Origin: Syntrophales bacterium
Lineage (GTDB): Bacteria > Desulfobacterota > Syntrophia > Syntrophales > JADFWA01
Reading direction: 5' to 3'
Length of the DNA: 35,558 bases
Assembly (NCBI GenBank): GCA_030655775.1
Contig: JAUSPI010000267.1
Location: 1-35,558 of the forward strand
A program made the translations under genes and the position numbers. The stretch's first letter is position 1, and every line of letters starts with the position of its first letter. The notes under the pieces are model-generated. The model saw only the letters and a program-made list of their open reading frames with translations, did not search any database and was not told the origin of the DNA. Positions 3,413 through 35,558 of this stretch are shown piece after piece.

Positions 3413-3691
3413 AAGGCGGCAAAGCCGCAACTAAAAAGGTTCAAAAAAGTGCCTAAAGTTTGAAGTGCCTAAAGTGAACTAAAGTTGATGCACTCGTAAA
3501 AAGTCAGTTTTTGTCACCCTGAATTTATTTCAGGGTCTCGAACTTACTGAAATAATTAGATGCTGAAACAAGTGAGATCCTGAACCAAGTTCAGGATGAC
3601 AAATGGTGCAGTTTACGACTTTTTACGAACTTGTCAAAGTTAACTGATCAAAATCTTTAACTTTAGGCACTTAAGCAACTTTAGCTCACTT
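3413..3691. repeat. ACTTTAG-family repeat interrupted by a MITE-like element
   Basis: In reverse orientation relative to the copy at 1-141, this element starts with the hairpin module GGCGGCAAAGCCGC (3416-3429). It continues with AAGTGCCTAAAGTTTGAAG and TGCCTAAAGTGAACTAAAG, and ends with TTAACTTTAGGCACTT and AACTTTAGCTCACTT near 3657-3691. Between the arms, at 3487-3635, sits a separate element with TCGTAAAAAGTC/GACTTTTTACGA ends, flanked on both sides by AAAGTT. This fills almost the whole space between the two tRNA-Ser genes. Confidence 0.8.
3487..3635. mobile_element. MITE-like element, TCGTAAAAAGTC termini, copy 1 (149 bp)
   Basis: The left end is GATGCACTCGTAAAAAGTC and the right end is GACTTTTTACGAACTTGTC, with the 12-base TCGTAAAAAGTC core inverted except at its outermost base. 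The interior holds another palindromic pair, TGTCACCCTGAATTTATTTCA-like on one side and CCTGAACCAAGTTCAGGATG on the other. AAAGTT occurs immediately outside both ends, compatible with a six-base target duplication. Removing the element plus one AAAGTT restores the normal arm sequence GAACTAAAGTTAA of the host repeat. It encodes no protein, so any mobility would need a transposase in trans. Confidence 0.65.
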
Positions 3692-3803: not shown

Positions 3804-3830
3804 ACTTATTAAAGATCAAAATGAAAGGTG

Positions 3831-3875
3831 ACTCTCCCCGCCTACAGAGCGGGGCTTGCGGGTGCACTCCCGGTC
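3831..3875. repeat. GC-rich hairpin repeat (CCCGCC/GGCGGG family), copy 1
   Basis: CTCCCCGCCTACAGAGCGGGG forms a hairpin, followed by CTTGCGGGTGCACTCCCGGTC. The reverse complement is very similar to 11153-11200, and shorter relatives lie at 6661-6697 and 19936-19973. This copy is just 3' of tadA. There is no T-run, so if it affects 3' ends it does so without a classical intrinsic terminator. Confidence 0.65.
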
Positions 3876-6368: not shown

Positions 6369-6722
6369 AACTACTAACAAGTTCGCAAAAAGTCTTTTCG
6401 GAGCGAATTCTAGCATTTTGGGAAATAGATGCTGGTAGTGACTGGCGTTAAGAAAATCTAACTGTTTGAGTGCGTTAGCACGAGTTTTAGATTGTAGGAT
6501 CGGGTTTTACACCCGACCGCAAACGGTGGCATATAAAATGCCACCCTACAGAATTGATTTGTCAATCGATTTATCAATGGTCCCCAAAATGGTTCTGAGC
6601 GAAGAAAACTGACCGGAGGCGCATCCCGCAAGGGGGCGCAATATAAAAAAATATATTCCTTACCGGGAAGTCCCGCCCTGTGGGCGGGGAGCTTCACTTT
6701 TTACGAATGCATCAACTACTAA
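6369..6722. mobile_element. Composite MITE-like element with TCGNAAAAAGTC termini, copy 2, flanked by AACTACTAA
   Basis: The left end is ACAAGTTCGCAAAAAGTC (6377-6394) and the right end is ACTTTTTACGAATGCATC (6696-6713). Compared with 3487-3635 the two distinguishable ends are swapped, so this copy is inverted. The nine bases AACTACTAA lie directly outside both ends (6369-6377 and 6714-6722), which suggests a target duplication of seven to nine bases. The 340-base interior has no gene. It contains a hairpin GGTGGCAT/ATGCCACC near 6525-6545, a GATCGGGTTTTACACCCGAC palindrome, and the GC-rich CCCGCC/GGCGGG hairpin at 6661-6697. Confidence 0.55.
6661..6697. repeat. GC-rich hairpin repeat (CCCGCC/GGCGGG family), copy 2
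   Basis: TACCGGGAAGTCCCGCCCTG followed by TGGGCGGGGAGCTTCAC. The CCCGCC-CTGT-GGGCGGG core forms a strong hairpin. It lies inside the composite element between the converging MFS and zinc-ribbon genes and matches the copy at 19936-19973 in reverse orientation. Confidence 0.65.
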
Positions 6723-11152: not shown

Positions 11153-11200
11153 GACCGGGAGCGCACCCGCAAGCCTCGCCCTATAGGCGGGGAGCTTCAC
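11153..11200. repeat. GC-rich hairpin repeat (CCCGCC/GGCGGG family), copy 3
   Basis: GACCGGGAGCGCACCCGCAA followed by GCCTCGCCCTATAGGCGGGG and AGCTTCAC. It nearly matches the reverse complement of 3831-3875. It lies between the converging DapB-like gene and def, where a bidirectional 3' hairpin would be useful. No T-run is present. Confidence 0.65.
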
Positions 11201-19914: not shown

Positions 19915-19935
19915 ATCGTCCAGCCAACACGTTGT

Positions 19936-19973
19936 GAGTCTCCCCGCCCACAGGGCGGGGCTTCCCGGTAAGG
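19936..19973. repeat. GC-rich hairpin repeat (CCCGCC/GGCGGG family), copy 4
   Basis: GAGTCTCCCCGCCCACAGGG followed by CGGGGCTTCCCGGTAAGG. The core CCCCGCC-CACA-GGGCGGGG is a strong hairpin. Unlike the other three copies it lies between two genes on the same strand, prfA and prmC, so it is presumably transcribed within the operon. The rest of the gap up to 20108 has the stem GATTC/GAATC and nothing else that I recognise. Confidence 0.65.
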
Positions 19974-20108: not shown

Positions 20109-20969
20109 ATGTCATCATTGAATATTCTCAAAATTTTAAATCAGACTACGCTCAACTTTCAAGAGAGTGGATTTAGTTCATCCAGATTAGATGCAGAGGT
20201 TCTTTTATCTACTTATTTAAAAACAGATCGATCCGGATTGTACGCTAATTTTGAAAGGTTGATTACCGATGAAGATTTAATCGGATTTTTAAGTTGGGTT
20301 GAGAGAAGGCAAAAGGGAGAACCCATCGCCTACATCACCGGCAGGAAAGAGTTTTGGTCTCTTACTTTCGAAGTGAACCCTGAGGTATTGGTACCACGGC
20401 CCGAGACGGAGCTCCTTGTGGAAGAGATACTCAAGGTCTGCTCAGAGGTGAAAGATCGGGAGACAGCGATTCTGGAGGTCGGTACTGGAAGCGGGGCGAT
20501 AAGTGTGGCTGTTGCATCTGATTTTAAAAAGGCACACATTGTTGCCACTGATACATCCATAGAAGCCATCAAAGTGGCCAGAAAAAATGCTGCAACCAAC
20601 GGCGTTACGGAAAGAATTTCTTTTCTTCACGGCAATTTACTTGAACCTGTTTCAGGAAATTTTGATATAATAGTTTCAAATCCTCCTTACATATCTGAAG
20701 AAGAATTTGAGCACCTCCCCGTTGAGGTAAGGATTTTTGAACCGAAGGGGGCACTACTTGCAGGCCCGGATGGAACAGAATTCCATTATGACCTTATAAG
20801 GGAAGGGAGTCATTATTTAAACTTTGGTGGCTGGCTCTTTATGGAGATAGGAGCTGGACAAAAGGGTGCAGTTGAAGATATGCTAAGAAAAAATAAAGTT
20901 TATGACAGCATAGGTTTCAGGACAGACTATGGTGGAATAGAACGAGTCGCCATGGCAAGGAGAAAGTAA
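20109..20969 (+). CDS. prmC: Release factor glutamine methyltransferase PrmC
   Basis: PrmC methylates the glutamine of the GGQ motif of release factors, using S-adenosylmethionine. The 286-residue protein has the N-terminal helical domain, the VPRPETELLVEE signature (96-107), SAM-binding LEVGTGSGAISVA (122-134) and the catalytic NPPY (191-194, in IVSNPPYISEEEF). I chose ATG 20109, giving MSSLNILKILNQ, because this matches the usual family start. An in-frame GTG at 20013 would add 32 residues with no family resemblance. The ribosome binding site is weak. Its substrate RF1 is encoded immediately upstream. Confidence 0.95.
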   Translation: MSSLNILKILNQTTLNFQESGFSSSRLDAEVLLSTYLKTDRSGLYANFERLITDEDLIGFLSWVERRQKGEPIAYITGRKEFWSLTFEVNPEVLVPRPETELLVEEILKVCSEVKDRETAILEVGTGSGAISVAVASDFKKAHIVATDTSIEAIKVARKNAATNGVTERISFLHGNLLEPVSGNFDIIVSNPPYISEEEFEHLPVEVRIFEPKGALLAGPDGTEFHYDLIREGSHYLNFGGWLFMEIGAGQKGAVEDMLRKNKVYDSIGFRTDYGGIERVAMARRK

Positions 20970-21070
20970 AAAGTCAGAAGACAGAAGACAGGAGGCAGAA
21001 TTCAGAAGACAGAAGAAAACGGGAATAATTTTTCTATTCTGACTCCTGTCTCCTGTCTCCTGACTTCTGG
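20970..21070. repeat. Degenerate CAGAAGA/TCTTCTG inverted repeat between prmC and murA
   Basis: The left half is made of reiterated CAGAAGACAGAAGACAGGAG units and the right half of the complementary CTCCTGTCTCCTGTCTCCTG units, separated by an AT-rich centre. The whole could fold into one long imperfect hairpin. It encodes nothing. It ends about 35 bases before the murA ribosome binding site. Confidence 0.7.
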
Positions 21071-23744: not shown

Positions 23745-23875
23745 GTTCAATGAGTTGGAGACCCTGAATGATCCTGAAACAAGTTCAGGACATGATTTTG
23801 GGTGACAAAAAAAGACTTTTTACGATTGCATCAACTTTAGCTCACTTTAGGCACTTTAAACTTTAGCCACTTTTT
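23745..23875. repeat. Truncated MITE-like end joined to an ACTTTAG-family arm
   Basis: GACTTTTTACGATTGCATC (23814-23832) is the right terminus of the TCGTAAAAAGTC family. It runs directly into AACTTTAGCTCACTTTAGG and then CACTTTAAACTTTAGCCACTT (23833-23875). Upstream, ACCCTGAATGATCCTGAAAC and TTCAGGACATGATTTTGGGT resemble the interior of the copy at 3487-3635. I could not find the matching left terminus, so this copy looks incomplete. It ends five bases before tRNA-Gly. Confidence 0.65.
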
Positions 23876-25890: not shown

Positions 25891-26043
25891 GACAGTCTCA
25901 TAAAAAGTCACAAACCTCCCTCTCCCTTGATGGGAGAGGGCTGGGGTGAGGGTGAAAGCAACGACATTTCAAGCGGTTATATCCCCCTCCCCTTTGTCCC
26001 CTCCCACCGGGGGAGGGGAAATTCAACTTTTTACGAGATCATC
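25891..26043. mobile_element. MITE-like element, TCRTAAAAAGTC family, copy A of a tandem pair (153 bp)
   Basis: The left end is GACAGTCTCATAAAAAGTC and the right end is ACTTTTTACGAGATCATC. AAACTT lies directly outside both ends (25885-25890 and 26044-26049). The interior is a different palindromic repeat, CCCTCTCCCTTGATGGGAGA and GGGCTGGGGTGAGGGTGAAA, with CCCCTCCCACCGGGGGAGGG near the right side. It is inserted between nusA and infB and encodes no credible protein. Confidence 0.7.
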
Positions 26044-26049
26044 AAACTT

Positions 26050-26181
26050 GATGGTTTCGTAAAAAGTCGGGTTTTGTTCCTCTCTGTCATTCCCGCGTAG
26101 GCGGGAATCCAGTTATTGTAAGGTGTTATAGACTCCCGACTGCGCGGGAGTGACAAGATTTGGACTTTTTACGAGTGCATC
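26050..26181. mobile_element. MITE-like element, TCGTAAAAAGTC family, copy B of a tandem pair (132 bp)
   Basis: The left end is GATGGTTTCGTAAAAAGTC and the right end is GACTTTTTACGAGTGCATC. AAACTT lies directly outside both ends (26044-26049, shared with copy A, and 26182-26187). The interior holds yet another palindrome, TCATTCCCGCGTAGGCGGGA followed by CTCCCGACTGCGCGGGAGTG. Copies A and B therefore share ends but not interiors. Confidence 0.7.
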
Positions 26182-26251
26182 AAACTTAGATGTTCAGCAA
26201 AACACATCGGCGGTTTTTTGTCGATATGGCATTTTGTGTTTATTGATTAGG

Positions 26252-26335
26252 AGTGAGCTAAAGTTAATGCAGCCTGCGCTGAAAGCGCATCCCTTAACTT
26301 TAGGCACTTTAGTTCACTTTAGGCACTTTAAACTT
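26252..26335. repeat. ACTTTAG-family repeat upstream of infB
   Basis: GAGTGAGCTAAAGTTAATG opens the copy, CTGCGCTGAAAGCGCAT is the central hairpin, and TTAACTTTAGGCACTTTAG with TTCACTTTAGGCACTTTAAA closes it. In orientation it is reversed relative to 1-141, and it lacks the CGCC-GAA-GGCG module. Together with the two MITE-like copies it fills most of the nusA-infB gap. Confidence 0.8.
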
Positions 26336-29167: not shown

Positions 29168-29513
29168 AAGAGCTGACAGGGTAGCCGATCTCATAAAAGC
29201 AGAAATTTCAGATATCTTATTGAAACGTGTAAAAGATCCGAGAATTGAACATGTTACCATTACCGGTGTGAAATTGTCCGATGATCTTCGTTTGGCAAAG
29301 GTTTTTTTTGTACAGATGGGCAGCGATACCTGCAGTGAAGAAACCATGACAGGAATGCAAAAGGCTACCGGTTTTTTGAAAAGAGAGCTGGGAATGAAAC
29401 TGCAGCTTCGCTATGTACCTAATATAACCTTTATTTACGATAAATCATTCGATTACGGGACTCGTATAGACAGGTTGTTGGAAGAACTGAAGGAAAAGGG
29501 GACAGATGTTTGA
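29154..29513 (+). CDS. rbfA: Ribosome-binding factor A
   Basis: RbfA is a late 30S assembly factor that binds near the 5' end of 16S rRNA helix 1. The 119-residue protein begins MANFKRADRVADLIKAEISD and has LLKRVKDPRIEHVTITGVKL and RYVPNITFIYDKSFDYGTRID, the standard KH-like family segments. It overlaps both neighbours (14 bases with DUF503, eight with nrnA), which implies coupled translation. Confidence 0.96.
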   Translation: MANFKRADRVADLIKAEISDILLKRVKDPRIEHVTITGVKLSDDLRLAKVFFVQMGSDTCSEETMTGMQKATGFLKRELGMKLQLRYVPNITFIYDKSFDYGTRIDRLLEELKEKGTDV

Positions 29514-30468
29514 TAAAATTGTCAGGGTCATAAATTCTTGCCGGAATTTTCTTATAACCTCCCATATTCGGCTCGATGGTGATGCCATAGGATCAGAACT
29601 GGCCATGTACCATGCCCTTCGTAATATGGGAAAAGAGGCTGTTGTTTACAACCAGGATGAGACCCCCGAAATTTACAGATTTCTTCCTGGCGCTGAATTT
29701 ATTGTCAACACCCTTGAATCTCTTGAAAATTTTGATGTTGTTTTTGTATTAGATTGCAGTAAAATTGACAGGATGGGAAATGAATCTGCCCGTGTTAGTG
29801 CTGCCATTAAGAAGATGATAAACATAGATCACCATATCTCAAACGGGGGGTTCTGTGATATGTCTCTGATCGATCCTGAAGCGAGTTCCACCGGAGAAAT
29901 AATTTATCGACTCTTAGAAAAAATGGGTGTTGCCCTGACTGAAAACATCGCAATAAACCTCTATACGGCCATTCTCACGGATACGGGGTCGTTTCGCTAT
30001 TCCAACACCGGAAGAGATACTTTCACAATAGCAGGAAAACTCGTGGAAAAAGGAGCGAACCCCCAACGGATAGCTGAAAGGATATATGAGATGAATCCTC
30101 CTGCTAAAATTAAACTTCTGACGAAGGTTCTCGAGACATTCGAGTCCGATTGGGATGAAAAAATCAGTTCCATTGTGGTTACCCATAAGATGCTTGAAGA
30201 AGCGGGGGCCCTTCCCGAACATACTGAGGGCTTTGTAGATTTTGCCCGTTCAATTGAAGGCGTTGAAGTTGCTGTACTTTACAATGAAATGTCCGAAAAC
30301 AACTTTAGGATAAGCCTTCGATCAAAGGGAAGAATTAATGTGGAACGGGTAGCCGGAGAATTTGGAGGTGGAGGTCACTCCAATGCCTCGGCTTGCATGA
30401 TTCAGGGGGATATTGATACAGTCAAAAGAAGTATAGTAACCTGTATTGTGAATCAACAAAAGAAGTGA
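29506..30468 (+). CDS. nrnA: DHH-family bifunctional oligoribonuclease and PAP phosphatase NrnA
   Basis: NrnA degrades short oligoribonucleotides from the 5' or 3' end, depending on the member, and hydrolyses 3'-phosphoadenosine 5'-phosphate. The 320-residue protein has the DHH-domain metal motifs ITSHIRLDGDAIGSELA (H20, D24, D26), FVLDCSKIDRMG and NIDHHISN. It ends with the DHHA1 substrate domain and its GEFGGGGHSNASACMI motif. Its place between rbfA and truB is conserved. The TGA stop (30466-30468) lies inside the first AAGTGAACTAAAG unit of an ACTTTAG-family repeat, so the native 3' end of the gene has probably been remodelled. Confidence 0.94.
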   Translation: MFDKIVRVINSCRNFLITSHIRLDGDAIGSELAMYHALRNMGKEAVVYNQDETPEIYRFLPGAEFIVNTLESLENFDVVFVLDCSKIDRMGNESARVSAAIKKMINIDHHISNGGFCDMSLIDPEASSTGEIIYRLLEKMGVALTENIAINLYTAILTDTGSFRYSNTGRDTFTIAGKLVEKGANPQRIAERIYEMNPPAKIKLLTKVLETFESDWDEKISSIVVTHKMLEEAGALPEHTEGFVDFARSIEGVEVAVLYNEMSENNFRISLRSKGRINVERVAGEFGGGGHSNASACMIQGDIDTVKRSIVTCIVNQQKK

Positions 30469-30604
30469 ACTAAAGTTTGAAGTGCCTAAAGTGAACTAAA
30501 GTTAATGGTACACGCCTTCGGCGCTGTTAAAACAAAACAAGTTGCGCTGAAAACGCATTTTTAACTTTAGTCACTTTAGCTCACTTTAGTCACTTTAGGC
30601 ACTT
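30463..30604. repeat. ACTTTAG-family repeat filling the nrnA-truB gap
   Basis: The copy is reversed relative to 1-141. AAGTGAACTAAAGTTTGAAG and TGCCTAAAGTGAACTAAAG form the left arms, and ACGCCTTCGGCGC and TGCGCTGAAAACGCA form the two centre hairpins. TTAACTTTAGTCACTTTAG, CTCACTTTAGTCAC and TTTAGGCACTT form the right arms. It provides the TGA stop of nrnA and ends four bases before an ATG in frame with truB. In this operon the repeat must be transcribed. Confidence 0.85.
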
Positions 30605-30619
30605 AGAATGCGTGATTGT

Positions 30620-31552
30620 ATGAACGGCGTTATAATAATTGACAAACCTCCGGGGAAGACATCATTTGCTGTTGTTGAAAATATCAAGAAGATACTCGGC
30701 GCAAGGAAAGTTGGCCATGCCGGCACCCTTGATCCACTTGCTACCGGAGTGCTTCCCGTGTGTATTAATGAGGCAACAAAGCTTGCTCAGTTTTTTTTGA
30801 TGGACAGCAAAGAATACAGGGCCACTATGTTACTGGGCATTGAAACTGATACTCTTGATATAGATGGCAAGATAACAGCCAGGAAGGAACCGCGGGTCAC
30901 CAAAAGTGACATAGAGAATACGTTGAATAGTTTTGTGGGGGAAATAGAACAAAAACCTCCCCGCTATTCTGCAATTAAATTTAAGGGAAAACCGTTGTAT
31001 GAATGGGCACGACGGGGAAGTGCCGTTGATCCCCTTCCCAGGACGGTCGACATACACCAAATAATTCTCGAAAACGTAGAATTGCCCTATGTGACCTTTT
31101 TTGTATCATGTTCCAAGGGAACCTATATAAGATCCCTTTGTTCCGAAATAGGTGAGAGATTGGGGTGTGGAGCATGCTTGTCCGCGTTGAGAAGGATAAG
31201 AAGCGGCTATTTTGTTGAGGAATCGGCCATCTCTTTTGAAAATATTAACCATCAGAAAGCGGAGGAGATGTTATTAAAAAACCTGATCCCGATGGTAGAT
31301 GCAGTGTCATGTTTTCCTACCATTGATGTCGATCAAAGGTTAGCAGACAGATTACGTAATGGCTATCAACCGTTGGTTGGTGATATGGCAGAGAATCAAA
31401 TTGATACTCTTACTGCTGGACAAGTGATAAAATTTATCTCGAGTGGCAATTGCCTTGTTGCCCTGGCAAGAATGCTTTATTCCTTTGACCAGATTTCGGC
31501 ACTTGATTCAAAGAAACAATTGGTCGAAATTATAAGGGTATTTAATTATTAA
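30620..31552 (+). CDS. truB: tRNA pseudouridine-55 synthase TruB
   Basis: TruB makes pseudouridine 55 in the T-loop of tRNAs and also acts as a tRNA chaperone. The 310-residue form begins MNGVIIIDKPPGKTSFAVVE and has VGHAGTLDPLATGVLPVCI, where D38 is the catalytic aspartate. KPPRYSAIKFKGKPLYEWAR and CSKGTYIRSLCSEIGERLG follow. I chose ATG 30620 because MNGV is the usual family N-terminus; an in-frame ATG at 30608 would add MRDC and lies four bases after the repeat. Neither start has a recognisable ribosome binding site, unusual for this operon, and the repeat upstream may have replaced it. Confidence 0.95.
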   Translation: MNGVIIIDKPPGKTSFAVVENIKKILGARKVGHAGTLDPLATGVLPVCINEATKLAQFFLMDSKEYRATMLLGIETDTLDIDGKITARKEPRVTKSDIENTLNSFVGEIEQKPPRYSAIKFKGKPLYEWARRGSAVDPLPRTVDIHQIILENVELPYVTFFVSCSKGTYIRSLCSEIGERLGCGACLSALRRIRSGYFVEESAISFENINHQKAEEMLLKNLIPMVDAVSCFPTIDVDQRLADRLRNGYQPLVGDMAENQIDTLTAGQVIKFISSGNCLVALARMLYSFDQISALDSKKQLVEIIRVFNY

Positions 31553-32043: not shown

Positions 32044-34164
32044 ATGAGTAAAATATTTAGTGCAAATTTTGCGGGGAGAGAGATCTCTCTGAAATCACAT
32101 TATATGGCAGGTCAGGCGGATGGCGCTCTTCTCGTTACTTACGGTGATACTGTGGTTCTTGTCACGGCAGTATCGATGAAAAGCAAAAGAGAAGGCCTTG
32201 ATTTTATGCCGTTGACCGTCGACTATCAGGAGATGACCTACGCGGCAGGTAAGATTCCTGGTGGATTTTTTAAGAGAGAAGGACGTCCTAATGATAATGA
32301 GATCCTGACATGCAGGATTATTGATCGATCCTTACGACCTCTTTTCCCTGATGGATATTTTTATGAGACGCAAATTGTGGCAACAGTGCTTTCATTGGAT
32401 GCTGAAAATGATTCCGATATTGTCGCTATGCTGGGTGCATCCGCTGCCCTTGAGATATCGGACATTCCCTTTGAGGGACCGGTTGCCGGTGTGAGAGTTG
32501 GCCGGGTTGGGGAAGAACTTATATGTAACCCTACGACGGAACAGCTAAACAACAGTGACCTGGATCTCTTTTTAGTTGGAAGAAAAATTCTTCCAGGCAC
32601 AGGTGGTAGAGAATTTGATGTCAACTTAGTGATGCTCGAGGGAGGGTCTCTTGAAGTTGAGGAAGATGTGATAGTTGAAGCTATAAAGATTGGTCTGGAA
32701 TCGATCAGGCCTGTAATTACGCTTCAGGATCAAATTCGCCAGGCTATAGGCAATGAAAAGAGACCAGTAGAACCGGTTGAAATTGATGAGGACCTTCGTA
32801 AGAGCATTTCTGATATGGCCATGACATCTCTGAAAGAGGCTTATGCGATTCAGAAAAAACAGGACCGTCAGGCAAAACTGCATCAGGTGAGAGAGTCGGT
32901 CGTAGCTGAATTCGCTTCTGAAAATGCCGAGCTTGGTCCAATGGTGAAGACCGTCCTGGAAGAGTTAGAAAAAAAGTTCCTCAGGGCTATGATTTTAAAT
33001 GAAAAGAAAAGAATAGACGGCAGGTCTAATACGGACATAAGGCCGATCAGTTCTGAGGTAGGGCTTCTTCCAAGGACGCACGGATCAGCACTGTTTGCCA
33101 GGGGGGAAACCCAGGTCCTTGCCGTTCTCACACTCGGCACGTCTTCAGATGAGCAGAGGATGGATTACATAAGCGGGGAGGAGAGAAGAACATTTATGCT
33201 GCACTATAATTTTCCCCCTTATTCCGTAGGTGAGGCAAGATTTTTAAGAGGTCCCGGAAGGAGGGAAATAGGACATGGAGCGCTCGCAAGAAGGGCATTG
33301 CTTCCTCTTCTTCCTTCTCAGGAAGAGTTCCCCTACACAATAAGGATTGTTTCCGAGACATTATCCTCCAACGGTTCATCATCCATGGCCACGGTTTGTG
33401 GAGGGATCCTTTCCTTAATGGATGCGGGAGTGCCGGTAAAGAGTATGGTTTCCGGTATTGCCATGGGTTTATTGAAGGAAGGTGAAGAAGTCGTCATCCT
33501 TTCCGACATTCTTGGCGATGAAGATCACGCAGGTGATATGGACTTCAAGGTGTGTGGTACAAATAAGGGTATTACTGCCATGCAAATGGACATAAAGATC
33601 GATGGCATCACAGAGGATATCCTGAAAAAAGCTCTCTATCAGGCAAGGGAAGGAAGACTTTTTATAATTGAAAAAATGAAGGAAACTCTTGCTGAACCGA
33701 GGGAAGATGTTTCGCTTTATGCCCCGAGGATAACCACTATAATGGTCAAGCCGGACAGGATAAGAGACGTCATAGGCACCGGTGGAAAGAACATAAGGCA
33801 CATTATAAGTGAAACAGGAGTCGATATAAATGTGGAGGATGATGGAACGGTGACGATTGCTTCCAATGATTCGGAGGCGGCAAGTAAGGCTGTTGCCATG
33901 GTCAAGATGCTGACCGAAGATGCGGAAGTAGGAAAGATTTACCTCGGTACGGTAAGGAAAGTTGTCGATTTTGGAGCCTTTGTGGAGATATTGCCGGGTA
34001 CAGACGGCCTGGTACATATATCTCAGCTCGCCAGGGAAAGGGTCAATAAGGTAACGGATGTCCTTAATGAAGGCGACAAGGTGTCTGTTAAGGTTATCGA
34101 GATTGACAGGCAGGGGAAAATAAGATTGAGCAGGAAGGACGCACTTGAGCACGATGCAGAATAA
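32044..34164 (+). CDS. pnp: Polyribonucleotide nucleotidyltransferase (PNPase)
   Basis: PNPase degrades RNA from the 3' end using phosphate and is a core part of the degradosome. The 706-residue protein has two RNase PH domains around a helical linker. The first begins IFSANFAGREISLKSHYMAG; the second begins IDGRSNTDIRPISSEVGLLP and carries FARGETQVLAVLTLG and DILGDEDHAGDMDFKV with the metal aspartates. A KH domain (RIRDVIGTGGKNIRHI) and an S1 domain (GKIYLGTVRKVVDFGAFVEI) follow. The start at ATG 32044 has AAAGGAG six bases upstream; a longer frame from 31999 is less likely. The end overlaps the M16 peptidase start by 11 bases. Confidence 0.97.
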   Translation: MSKIFSANFAGREISLKSHYMAGQADGALLVTYGDTVVLVTAVSMKSKREGLDFMPLTVDYQEMTYAAGKIPGGFFKREGRPNDNEILTCRIIDRSLRPLFPDGYFYETQIVATVLSLDAENDSDIVAMLGASAALEISDIPFEGPVAGVRVGRVGEELICNPTTEQLNNSDLDLFLVGRKILPGTGGREFDVNLVMLEGGSLEVEEDVIVEAIKIGLESIRPVITLQDQIRQAIGNEKRPVEPVEIDEDLRKSISDMAMTSLKEAYAIQKKQDRQAKLHQVRESVVAEFASENAELGPMVKTVLEELEKKFLRAMILNEKKRIDGRSNTDIRPISSEVGLLPRTHGSALFARGETQVLAVLTLGTSSDEQRMDYISGEERRTFMLHYNFPPYSVGEARFLRGPGRREIGHGALARRALLPLLPSQEEFPYTIRIVSETLSSNGSSSMATVCGGILSLMDAGVPVKSMVSGIAMGLLKEGEEVVILSDILGDEDHAGDMDFKVCGTNKGITAMQMDIKIDGITEDILKKALYQAREGRLFIIEKMKETLAEPREDVSLYAPRITTIMVKPDRIRDVIGTGGKNIRHIISETGVDINVEDDGTVTIASNDSEAASKAVAMVKMLTEDAEVGKIYLGTVRKVVDFGAFVEILPGTDGLVHISQLARERVNKVTDVLNEGDKVSVKVIEIDRQGKIRLSRKDALEHDAE

Positions 34165-35413
34165 GACCGTTCTGGATAATGGCATAAGGGTCATCTCTGA
34201 AGAGATCAATCATGTGAGATCGGTTTCAATAGGGGTTTGGGTCAGGTGCGGTTCTCGCAGTGAAAATTATACCATAAACGGGATGGCCCATTTCATAGAG
34301 CACATGCTCTTCAAGGGGACAAAGAATCGATCCGCCTTTGACATAGCATCGGAGATCGATTCTGTCGGTGGCGTAATGAATGCCTTTACCGGCAAGGAAT
34401 TAACCGCCTTCTATATTAAGATTCCAGATTACCATCTTGCTATGGCGATTGACCTTCTTGCTGATATACTAAAAAACTCTCTTTTTGATCCCGCGGAAAT
34501 AGAAAAGGAATCGTCGGTGGTTCTTCAAGAAATTTCTATGGTGGAAGATACACCGGATGATTTTATTCACGATTTTTTCGAGAAAACCTTCTGGAATGGG
34601 CACCCCTTAGGTCTTCCTGTCTTAGGAACAAAGGAAACGGTTGTCAATTTTGGAAGAGATAGCCTTATTAACTTTTTTACTGAAAGATACACAGGGGAAA
34701 ATATAACGTTGACCGCTGCAGGTAATCTGAAACATGATGTCCTGGTTAATCTTGCCAAGAACACCTTTGGATCGTTAGAAAGAAAATCGATAAAAGAATT
34801 GCATAACAAACCTCTCATAACACCTGCAGTTGCCGTAATTGAAAAAGATCTGGAACAGGAACATATTATTGTCGGTACCACTGCTCCCCCTTCCACAAGC
34901 CAACTGCGATATCCCGCCCTGTTAATGAATATTGTTCTTGGAGGAAGCATGAGTTCGAAACTTTTTCAGGAAATCAGGGAAAAGAGGGGGCTTGCTTACT
35001 CCATAAGTTCTTATCTCGTTCCATACAGGGACGCGGGCATATTGGGTATTTACGTGGCTACCAGTGAAGATAAGGTTAAGAATGTCATTGGTTTGATATT
35101 TGAAGAATTGGATAAGCTCAGGAGTAATTTACTGACAGAAAAAGAGCTTCATTCAGCCAAGGAGCTGGTAAAAGGAAATTTGCTATTAAGTATGGAAAGT
35201 ACCGACAACCGTATGACAAAACTTGCAAAAAATGAGATTTTATTCGGACGTAATATCCCAGTAGAAGAGATTGTAAAAAATATAGAAGCCGTTAGCAGGG
35301 AAGACATAAAAAATCTGGCCGGCGATATCTTCAGCTTCGACACCATTTCTTTAGCAGCTCTGGGAAAAGTTTCGGAAAAGGATATTACAGATTTAGTTAA
35401 AAGTGTAAAGTGA
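34154..35413 (+). CDS. M16 family zinc peptidase (PqqL/YmxG-like)
   Basis: This 419-residue insulinase/pitrilysin-type peptidase has the inverted zinc motif H46-F-I-E49-H50 and the third zinc ligand E126, spaced 76 residues away as expected (H-X-X-E-H-X75-E). The second half carries a non-catalytic M16 domain with FQEIREKRGLAYSISS, which contains the conserved R/Y pair. Such genes commonly follow pnp in deltaproteobacteria and Firmicutes. The substrate is unknown. I chose ATG 34154; a TTG at 34145 is possible. The TGA stop (35411-35413) lies in an AAAGTGAACTAAAG unit of the terminal repeat. Confidence 0.92.
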   Translation: MQNKTVLDNGIRVISEEINHVRSVSIGVWVRCGSRSENYTINGMAHFIEHMLFKGTKNRSAFDIASEIDSVGGVMNAFTGKELTAFYIKIPDYHLAMAIDLLADILKNSLFDPAEIEKESSVVLQEISMVEDTPDDFIHDFFEKTFWNGHPLGLPVLGTKETVVNFGRDSLINFFTERYTGENITLTAAGNLKHDVLVNLAKNTFGSLERKSIKELHNKPLITPAVAVIEKDLEQEHIIVGTTAPPSTSQLRYPALLMNIVLGGSMSSKLFQEIREKRGLAYSISSYLVPYRDAGILGIYVATSEDKVKNVIGLIFEELDKLRSNLLTEKELHSAKELVKGNLLLSMESTDNRMTKLAKNEILFGRNIPVEEIVKNIEAVSREDIKNLAGDIFSFDTISLAALGKVSEKDITDLVKSVK

Positions 35414-35558
35414 ACTAAAGTGCCTAAAGTTAAAAAATGCGCTTTCAGCGCAGCCTGTTTCGAATTTGACCGCGCCGAAGGCGTGTACATTAACTTTAGC
35501 TCACTTTAGGCACTTCAAACTTTAGGCACTTTTGGGGTTGCGGCTTTGCCCCCTTTAG
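35408..35558. repeat. ACTTTAG-family repeat at the right end of the window
   Basis: AAAGTGAACTAAAGTGCC leads into 141 bases identical to positions 1-141. The first unit supplies the stop codon of the M16 peptidase gene, as a related unit does for nrnA. The sequence stops inside the repeat, so what follows in the real chromosome is not known. A dut gene often follows in related operons, but none is seen here. Confidence 0.9.

Follow-up and report, generated by a model that had tools for sequence, protein, structure and literature searches.

Hairpin repeats that supply stop codons in a Syntrophales contig are probable gene-less copies of an intergenic element with an IVP gene

The repeat at the ends of nrnA and the M16 peptidase gene

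The whole stretch of DNA analysed here (the window) is 35,558 nucleotides (nt) long and represents an entire contig, JAUSPI010000267.1, of a Syntrophales bacterium. A repeat made of inverted short words sits between the genes nrnA and truB, and a second copy lies downstream of a gene for an M16 peptidase. The features at these two places are:

29506 to 30468, plus strand: nrnA (DHH/DHHA1; Pfam PF01368 and PF02272; the match to the NCBIfam NrnA model is below its cut-off)
30466 to 30468, plus strand: nrnA stop TGA within the outermost word, frame AAG/TGA; the open reading frame (ORF) ends AAG AAG TGA
30463 to 30604, no strand: short hairpin element without an IVP gene in the nrnA–truB gap, 142 nt, with a left arm of AAGTG words, a 63-nt core and an inverted right arm
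30620 to 31552, plus strand: truB (TIGR00431), with the start taken from the conserved start of relatives; the mechanical ORF begins at 30608
35389 to 35407, plus strand: extended end of the element in its long form (AGATTTAGTTAAAAGTGTA), translated as the M16 codons DLVKSV; many other copies have a near-identical extension next to them, and the M16 C-termini of relatives were compared
35411 to 35413, plus strand: M16 stop TGA within the outermost word; the ORF ends GTA AAG TGA
35408 to 35531, no strand: second copy, downstream of the M16 peptidase gene, 124 nt, with a 64-nt core in reverse orientation

We consider it probable that the nrnA–truB repeat belongs to a dispersed hairpin element and is one of its short, non-autonomous copies; the full-size form has inverted arms of short words around a gene for the 23S rRNA-intervening sequence protein (IVP, PF05635). 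In the best reading, this dispersed element is itself related to the 23S rRNA intervening sequence (IVS) but intergenic. The strongest point, drawn from sequence comparison, is the linkage between arms and IVP gene described in the next section.

In both window copies the paired inverted arms are built from AAGTGNNCTAAAG and AAGTGCCTAAAG words, and the outermost word carries the stop of the gene. An earlier note on this DNA had claimed that both stops are the TGA of a repeat unit. This proved correct, as the nrnA stop falls in AAGTGAACTAAAG at 30463-30475 and that of the M16 ORF (34145-35413) in AAGTGAACTAAAG at 35408-35420. Words of the AAGTGAACTAAAG type, with at most two mismatches, occur 12 times in the window, whereas 100 shuffles gave 1.35 on average and never more than 5. 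The long RNA stem expected by the same note is also predicted: the nrnA–truB copy would fold with -53.9 kcal/mol (z -6.96) and the M16 copy with z -5.05, none of 200 shuffles being as low in either case, and the predicted fold of an IVP-bearing copy has z -5.31. Neither window copy contains a PF05635 gene. The copies of the window adjoin protein or tRNA genes and do not lie within an rRNA gene; the Rfam scan of the window recovered no ribosomal RNA.

The relation of the repeat to truB needs some correction. The repeat does end close upstream of an in-frame ATG, but the gap is three bases (from 30604 to the ATG at 30608) and not four as had been stated. This ATG is in frame with truB but is probably not its start, as the relatives start at the ATG at 30620 (MNGVIIIDKP); an in-frame ATG matching that at 30608 is present in G003 and absent in G002 (G and L numbers are our labels of genomes and loci). 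The suggested removal of the truB ribosome binding site is not supported, the median distance from an element of the family to the following start being 26 nt. The close packing of the two genes in related operons was recovered: of 26 loci from other families, 23 have nrnA and truB overlapping or at most 30 nt apart, so the two have moved apart in this family.

Both junctions were compared with those of relatives. After a shared IT, the M16 protein ends with DLVKSVK in G000 and with DLVRSVK in G003, both having the element at the same place, while the tails are KALVRP in G002 and SGLRGYRV in G001. The tail in G000 matches the extended end found beside many other copies, and this argues that the element supplied the last seven codons of M16 together with its stop. 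The alignment of C-termini thus bears out a gain of codons for M16, but not for nrnA, which neither gained nor lost any in comparison with G002. A native stop at the same column had been set beforehand as refuting evidence; for nrnA it was found in G002, a member of the same family with its own TAA at that column, but the nrnA–truB gap of G002 is occupied by a hairpin built from different words (z -2.8, with 2 of 200 shuffles folding at least as well). In G003 an AAGTG copy occupies the site, and a TAG precedes its TGA by two codons; G001 has a decayed copy, whose TGA closes the gene three codons later. The G002 gap downstream of M16 also folds as an other-word hairpin (z -3.8, 1 of 200 shuffles as low). 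A clean empty site was not found among the relatives, as G002 had seemed empty at both junctions yet carries these hairpins. Other long gaps fold weakly or no better than shuffles (z -0.2 in G001, -1.5 in G004 and 0.4 in G019).

IVP genes and the words of their arms

The pattern AAGTGANCTAAAGT has 134 matches in the whole genome and its reversed form none; the element set of this genome was taken from 100 of the 134 match places plus the window. In the loci examined we found 46 paired elements, some of them double-counted (L027 and L030 overlap). The words within the arms (AAGTGNNCTAAAG and variants) are spaced by 9-10 nt, and the cores measure 20-22, 34, 53-65 or 144-377 nt, several of the long ones containing other repeats or an IVP gene. 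In most copies seen the words are mixed; in L291 (1357-1458) the left arm consists of eleven tandem words of the AAGTGCCTA type.

Some arm pairs enclose approximately 380-430 nt, and in L048, L071 and L102 the sole content is one intact ORF of 116-122 codons. The protein from L102 (P0004) matches PF05635 and TIGR02436 (four helix bundle protein), as well as the chain 2rld_A with an E-value of 8.4e-21. We searched 395 genomes with P0004 and fetched 30 loci from a much longer list of matches, to which one more was added (G225:C207, with arms on both sides). AAGTG-type words were present beside the gene in all 14 fetched loci with a close IVP (at least 69 % identity to P0004), by the strict pattern on both sides in 11 and on one side in L290, L292 and the contig-end L295. 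None of the 17 fetched loci with an IVP of at most 58 % identity has such words within 500 nt. The linkage of arm word and close IVP is significant (Fisher 8e-9, 13 versus 17 loci), and an exact 22-mer is found in 9 of the 13 genomes with a close IVP versus 18 of the 382 other sampled genomes (Fisher 5e-9). A 64 %-identical IVP with AAGTG-type arms comes from a genome titled Bacteroidetes (L330). In L298 (1690-1944) the IVP gene is split by a GIY-YIG ORF (PF01541, E 1.1e-12), and L300 from another genome has the same flanking sequence.

Many of the remaining IVP genes also tend to be enclosed by inverted arms of tandem short words, which differ from one IVP to another. An arm score was reached by 18 of 24 and by 25 of 30 loci, but by none of 45 control flanks of nrnA and M16 genes. 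The 24-locus set comprises full-length IVP hits with long flanks; 10 further close ones were scored and 8 of them reach the score. In 18 loci of the 24-locus set, both arms are at most 100 nt away from the IVP match. The score is no proof for a single locus, as it is also reached by 10 of 560 random segments, 26 of 300 segments inside IVP loci and 1 of 9 Y1_Tnp flanks.

We compared 89 loci, of which the 78 with an arm score of at least 18 entered the pair table; the strand was chosen by fewer stops, and L338 and L368 retain stops. Among 50 pairs whose IVPs are at least 65 % identical, 32 have an arm word in common (16 of 29 without the AAGTG group); the corresponding figures are 23 of 2046 for pairs with identity below 35 % and 2 of 23 for pairs from the same genome. 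As judged from these sequences, the arm word follows the IVP clade more than the genome.

Finished plasmids of cyanobacteria, Chloroflexota, Bacteroidota and Spirochaetota gave 27 records, from which 12 loci were fetched. All 12 reach the score when 300 nt of flank plus 20 nt of the gene are used (controls 0 of 45), 9 with 300 nt and 8 with 250 nt. Nine of the plasmid loci have a same-strand gene upstream, and in 6 of these nine (L370, L372 and L375-L378) its annotated stop lies inside the arm, although in this comparison the arms of L372 and L378 score no more than 16 and 18. The IVP gene of Nostoc TCL26-01 and of Anabaena 7122 is flanked by cas2 and cas1 and lies on the other strand; that such genes can be found in cas loci has been noted before (PMC3936711).

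In a rather unlikely alternative, the word arrays are older local repeats (products of slippage and inversion), IVP elements merely prefer to insert there and the arms are their target. It would fit with short IVP-less copies far outnumbering those with the gene, with a foreign-word IVP lying within the core of an AAGTG copy (L257 of this genome, a different IVP with its own words), with close IVPs sharing their word incompletely (the 32 of 50 pairs above), and with published intergenic heptamer arrays (TAACTGA, PMC4679880; GGGNATC, PMC4692102) that are presented, in the available parts of these papers, with no IVP. However, the word tracks the IVP clade above the genome, AAGTG words and a close IVP co-occur in genomes titled with two phyla, and in 18 of 24 loci an arm is found no more than 100 nt from the IVP match on each side.

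In the preferred reading, the full-size element would consist of two inverted arms of tandem short words (AAGTGNNCTAAAG and variants) flanking one gene for a four-helix-bundle IVP, and short copies would have kept the arms, between which about 20 or 64 nt take the place of the gene. A broader version is tentative, and we hold it to be slightly less probable than its opposite. It says that a class of hairpin elements spread throughout the bacteria has IVP/S23 proteins as its dedicated partners and one word for each IVP lineage, that the rRNA intervening sequences are members which landed in rRNA, that many unexplained intergenic short-word repeats are gene-less copies, and that arms at a fixed site are replaceable by arms of other words. 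If true, the arm replacement at both window junctions in G002 would mean either that elements landed at stop codons more than once or that the arms were rewritten in place.

The spread of the AAGTG element is patchy. A 14-mer was found in 7 of 41 genomes (that of the window and surrounding ones) from two families, with at least 20 matches in 5 of them, and 27 of the 395 genomes from the phylum contain AAGTGCCTAAAGTNNNCTAAAG. When species genomes were scanned with a 22-mer, at least 114 stretches matched, some on contigs above 100 kb. Among the matches listed, the contig titles name Desulfobacterota groups, Phycisphaerae, Bacteroidetes, Omnitrophota, Nitrospirae, Auribacterota, Neomarinimicrobiota and others; these phylum names are titles of assembled genomes, and short contigs may be misbinned.

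Placement at stop codons and alternative explanations

For the stop-codon and placement counts a gene was any mechanical ORF of at least 150 codons, and in these as well as in the flank-duplication counts duplicate elements were dropped by flank. We considered 79 element ends in this genome and 179 elsewhere, and at 100 of them a gene terminates within -150 to +80 nt; 53 of these gene ends fall within -13 to +10 nt of the element edge, and 29 stops are inside the element. The idea that the repeat inserts at gene ends without breaking the frame is borne out in so far as the element is dispersed and often gives the stop, but just 9 of the 100 gene ends use the AAG/TGA frame; others finish in SA or VS or continue through KVP codons. 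Tails encoded by the element, such as KVPKVPKMT, terminate the upstream proteins in L102 (2924-3409), L126 and L183, since a word of 9 nt leaves the reading frame intact.

None of 114 elements lies within an ORF: 87 are between same-strand genes, 7 between convergent and 13 between divergent ones, and 7 were left unclassified. In 70 same-strand gaps, where both genes are within 300 nt, the median distance is 7 nt to the stop and 26 nt to the start. The stop side is nearer in 49 of them and the start side in 20 (p 6e-4), with the stop inside the element in 21, so the copies are placed non-randomly relative to stops, in agreement with the earlier note. There is no enrichment between same-strand genes, which surround 87 of 107 gaps with an element versus 250 of 299 gaps without. 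The stop-supplying pattern is therefore real and general, while the pull is toward the stop and not toward operons.

How such a pattern could arise may be outlined as follows. The words carry stops in up to three forward frames, so the reading frame would still be closed if an element landed at a gene end or shortly ahead of it. Elements would move with the IVP acting in trans. The transcribed stem would be cut by RNase III, by analogy with the rRNA intervening sequences, and a cut between cistrons, like a cut in an rRNA loop, would do little harm; copies might persist there for this reason. Survival would be mainly at gene ends since each gene could still be translated separately.

Several results weigh against the proposed IVP element. 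The only cognate IVP gene found within arms in this genome is frameshifted (L256, counted also as L294), and just 2 of 30 IVP loci fetched from five related genomes are inside AAGTG arms. The chromosome record CP070769 has the word and no PF05635 match. The arm score is below the cut-off in 20 of 89 IVP loci, including L290 of the close group, and the M16 copy reaches into the overlap of the contig ends. No insertion event was seen and the evidence is comparative. Target site duplication was not detected, the shared flank word being 2.56 versus 2.37 and 3.03 versus 2.77, with 1206 and 320 of 5000 permutations as high. Compensation between arms was not detected either, the arm match within and between copies being 15.1 versus 18.6 and 17.0 versus 17.5, i.e. 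with no excess within copies.

A hairpin of the host, kept at operon junctions for its function as a terminator or mRNA stability element, would explain the strong predicted stem of the transcript and the position after stop codons. We regard it as improbable. Neither copy has a terminator-like site (stem and T-run) on the sense strand, and each gives one match on the minus strand, where shuffles gave 0.5 and 0.4. Same-strand placement is no commoner than in element-free gaps, hairpins of unrelated words occupy the same two junctions in G002, and loci of other families mostly leave at most 30 nt between nrnA and truB.

A part of a retroelement of the diversity-generating (DGR) kind, with the IVP in the role of Avd next to a reverse transcriptase, has an equally small chance. 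PF05635 resembles the DGR protein Avd, according to the available part of PMC10053308, and it is present in all 12 repeat-bearing genomes, but RVT_1 has matches in 9 of them and none in the other 3 (G014, G401 and G385, which are 96-97 % complete). Least probable is a repetitive extragenic palindromic (REP) or bacterial interspersed mosaic element (BIME) moved by a REP-associated tyrosine transposase (RAYT, Y1_Tnp), for although these are dispersed intergenic hairpins of like size and Y1_Tnp genes exist in the five genomes searched, paired AAGTG arms were found at none of 20 fetched Y1_Tnp loci (2 have a single one-word match) and the gene within the arms is that of IVP.

Known systems and further repeats of the window

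The closest known system is the 23S rRNA IVS with an S23p/IVP ORF. In Coxiella burnetii, the rRNA element has an inverted-repeat stem, an S23p ORF preceded by tandem heptamers, and excision by RNase III, S23p proteins being without known function (available part of PMC4990558). An idea of Ralph and McClelland 1993, cited there, is that the rRNA intervening sequence was once a mobile element and that its ORF coded a component of mobility. The elements described here share with it the inverted-repeat stem around one IVP gene, the short tandem repeats beside the ORF and the decay of the ORF in some copies. In contrast, they lie between protein genes and not in an rRNA gene, are present in many copies per genome, most of them gene-less, and have arms of lineage-specific words.

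As in miniature inverted-repeat transposable elements (MITEs), short inverted-repeat copies outnumber the gene-bearing form, and a gene-bearing relative with the same ends exists (the IVP loci with AAGTG arms). Unlike MITEs, they come with no target duplication that we could find, a variable number of words at the arm ends and no known transposase. The TAACTGA arrays of Beggiatoaceae (PMC4679880) and the GGGNATC arrays of Xanthomonas and Nostoc (PMC4692102) are likewise short tandem intergenic words, and those of TAACTGA also carry stops in all forward frames, overlap upstream stops and are spread patchily across phyla; in the available parts of both papers, however, they are described as direct arrays. 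The terms S23, four helix and intervening are absent from the main text of PMC4679880. REP and BIME sequences resemble our elements as dispersed intergenic hairpins and differ in their Y1_Tnp, which was not seen in paired arms at the 20 loci. In the open-licence literature of PubMed Central we found no paper with the word itself and, as far as titles, first lines of abstracts and selected passages go, no description of intergenic word-armed IVP elements; a prior description may exist elsewhere.

With dozens of intergenic copies per genome and a word tied to the IVP clade, the element may offer a system for testing the old idea of mobility on S23p/IVP. It would also explain one kind of gene-end repeat that provides stops, and why at least this contig ends in such a repeat. 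Bases 1-141 equal bases 35418-35558, since the same repeat lies across both contig ends. Such ends could be mistaken for a terminal repeat in a test of circularity; 141 is a common largest k-mer of assemblers. The remaining features of the window are:

1 to 114, no strand: the same element as 35408-35531 at the other contig end (first 141 bases equal to the last 141)
3447 to 3691, no strand: copy between two tRNA-Ser genes, with another repeat within its core
23835 to 23872, minus strand: unpaired arm directly before tRNA-Gly
26251 to 26328, no strand: short copy with a 34-nt core
20971 to 21069, no strand: hairpin of like build made of other words (CAGAAGACAG), with inverted arms of 31-40 nt that are 80-90 % complementary, starting two bases past the ORF stop at 20969

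Two more dispersed repeat families were noticed. The first (GACTTTTTACGA and following bases) occurs at 3617-3643, 23814-23840, 26025-26051 and 26163-26189, sometimes within AAGTG elements. The other forms stems of the type CCCCGCC...GGCGGGG at 3828-3863, 6662-6697, 11165-11200 and 19934-19969.
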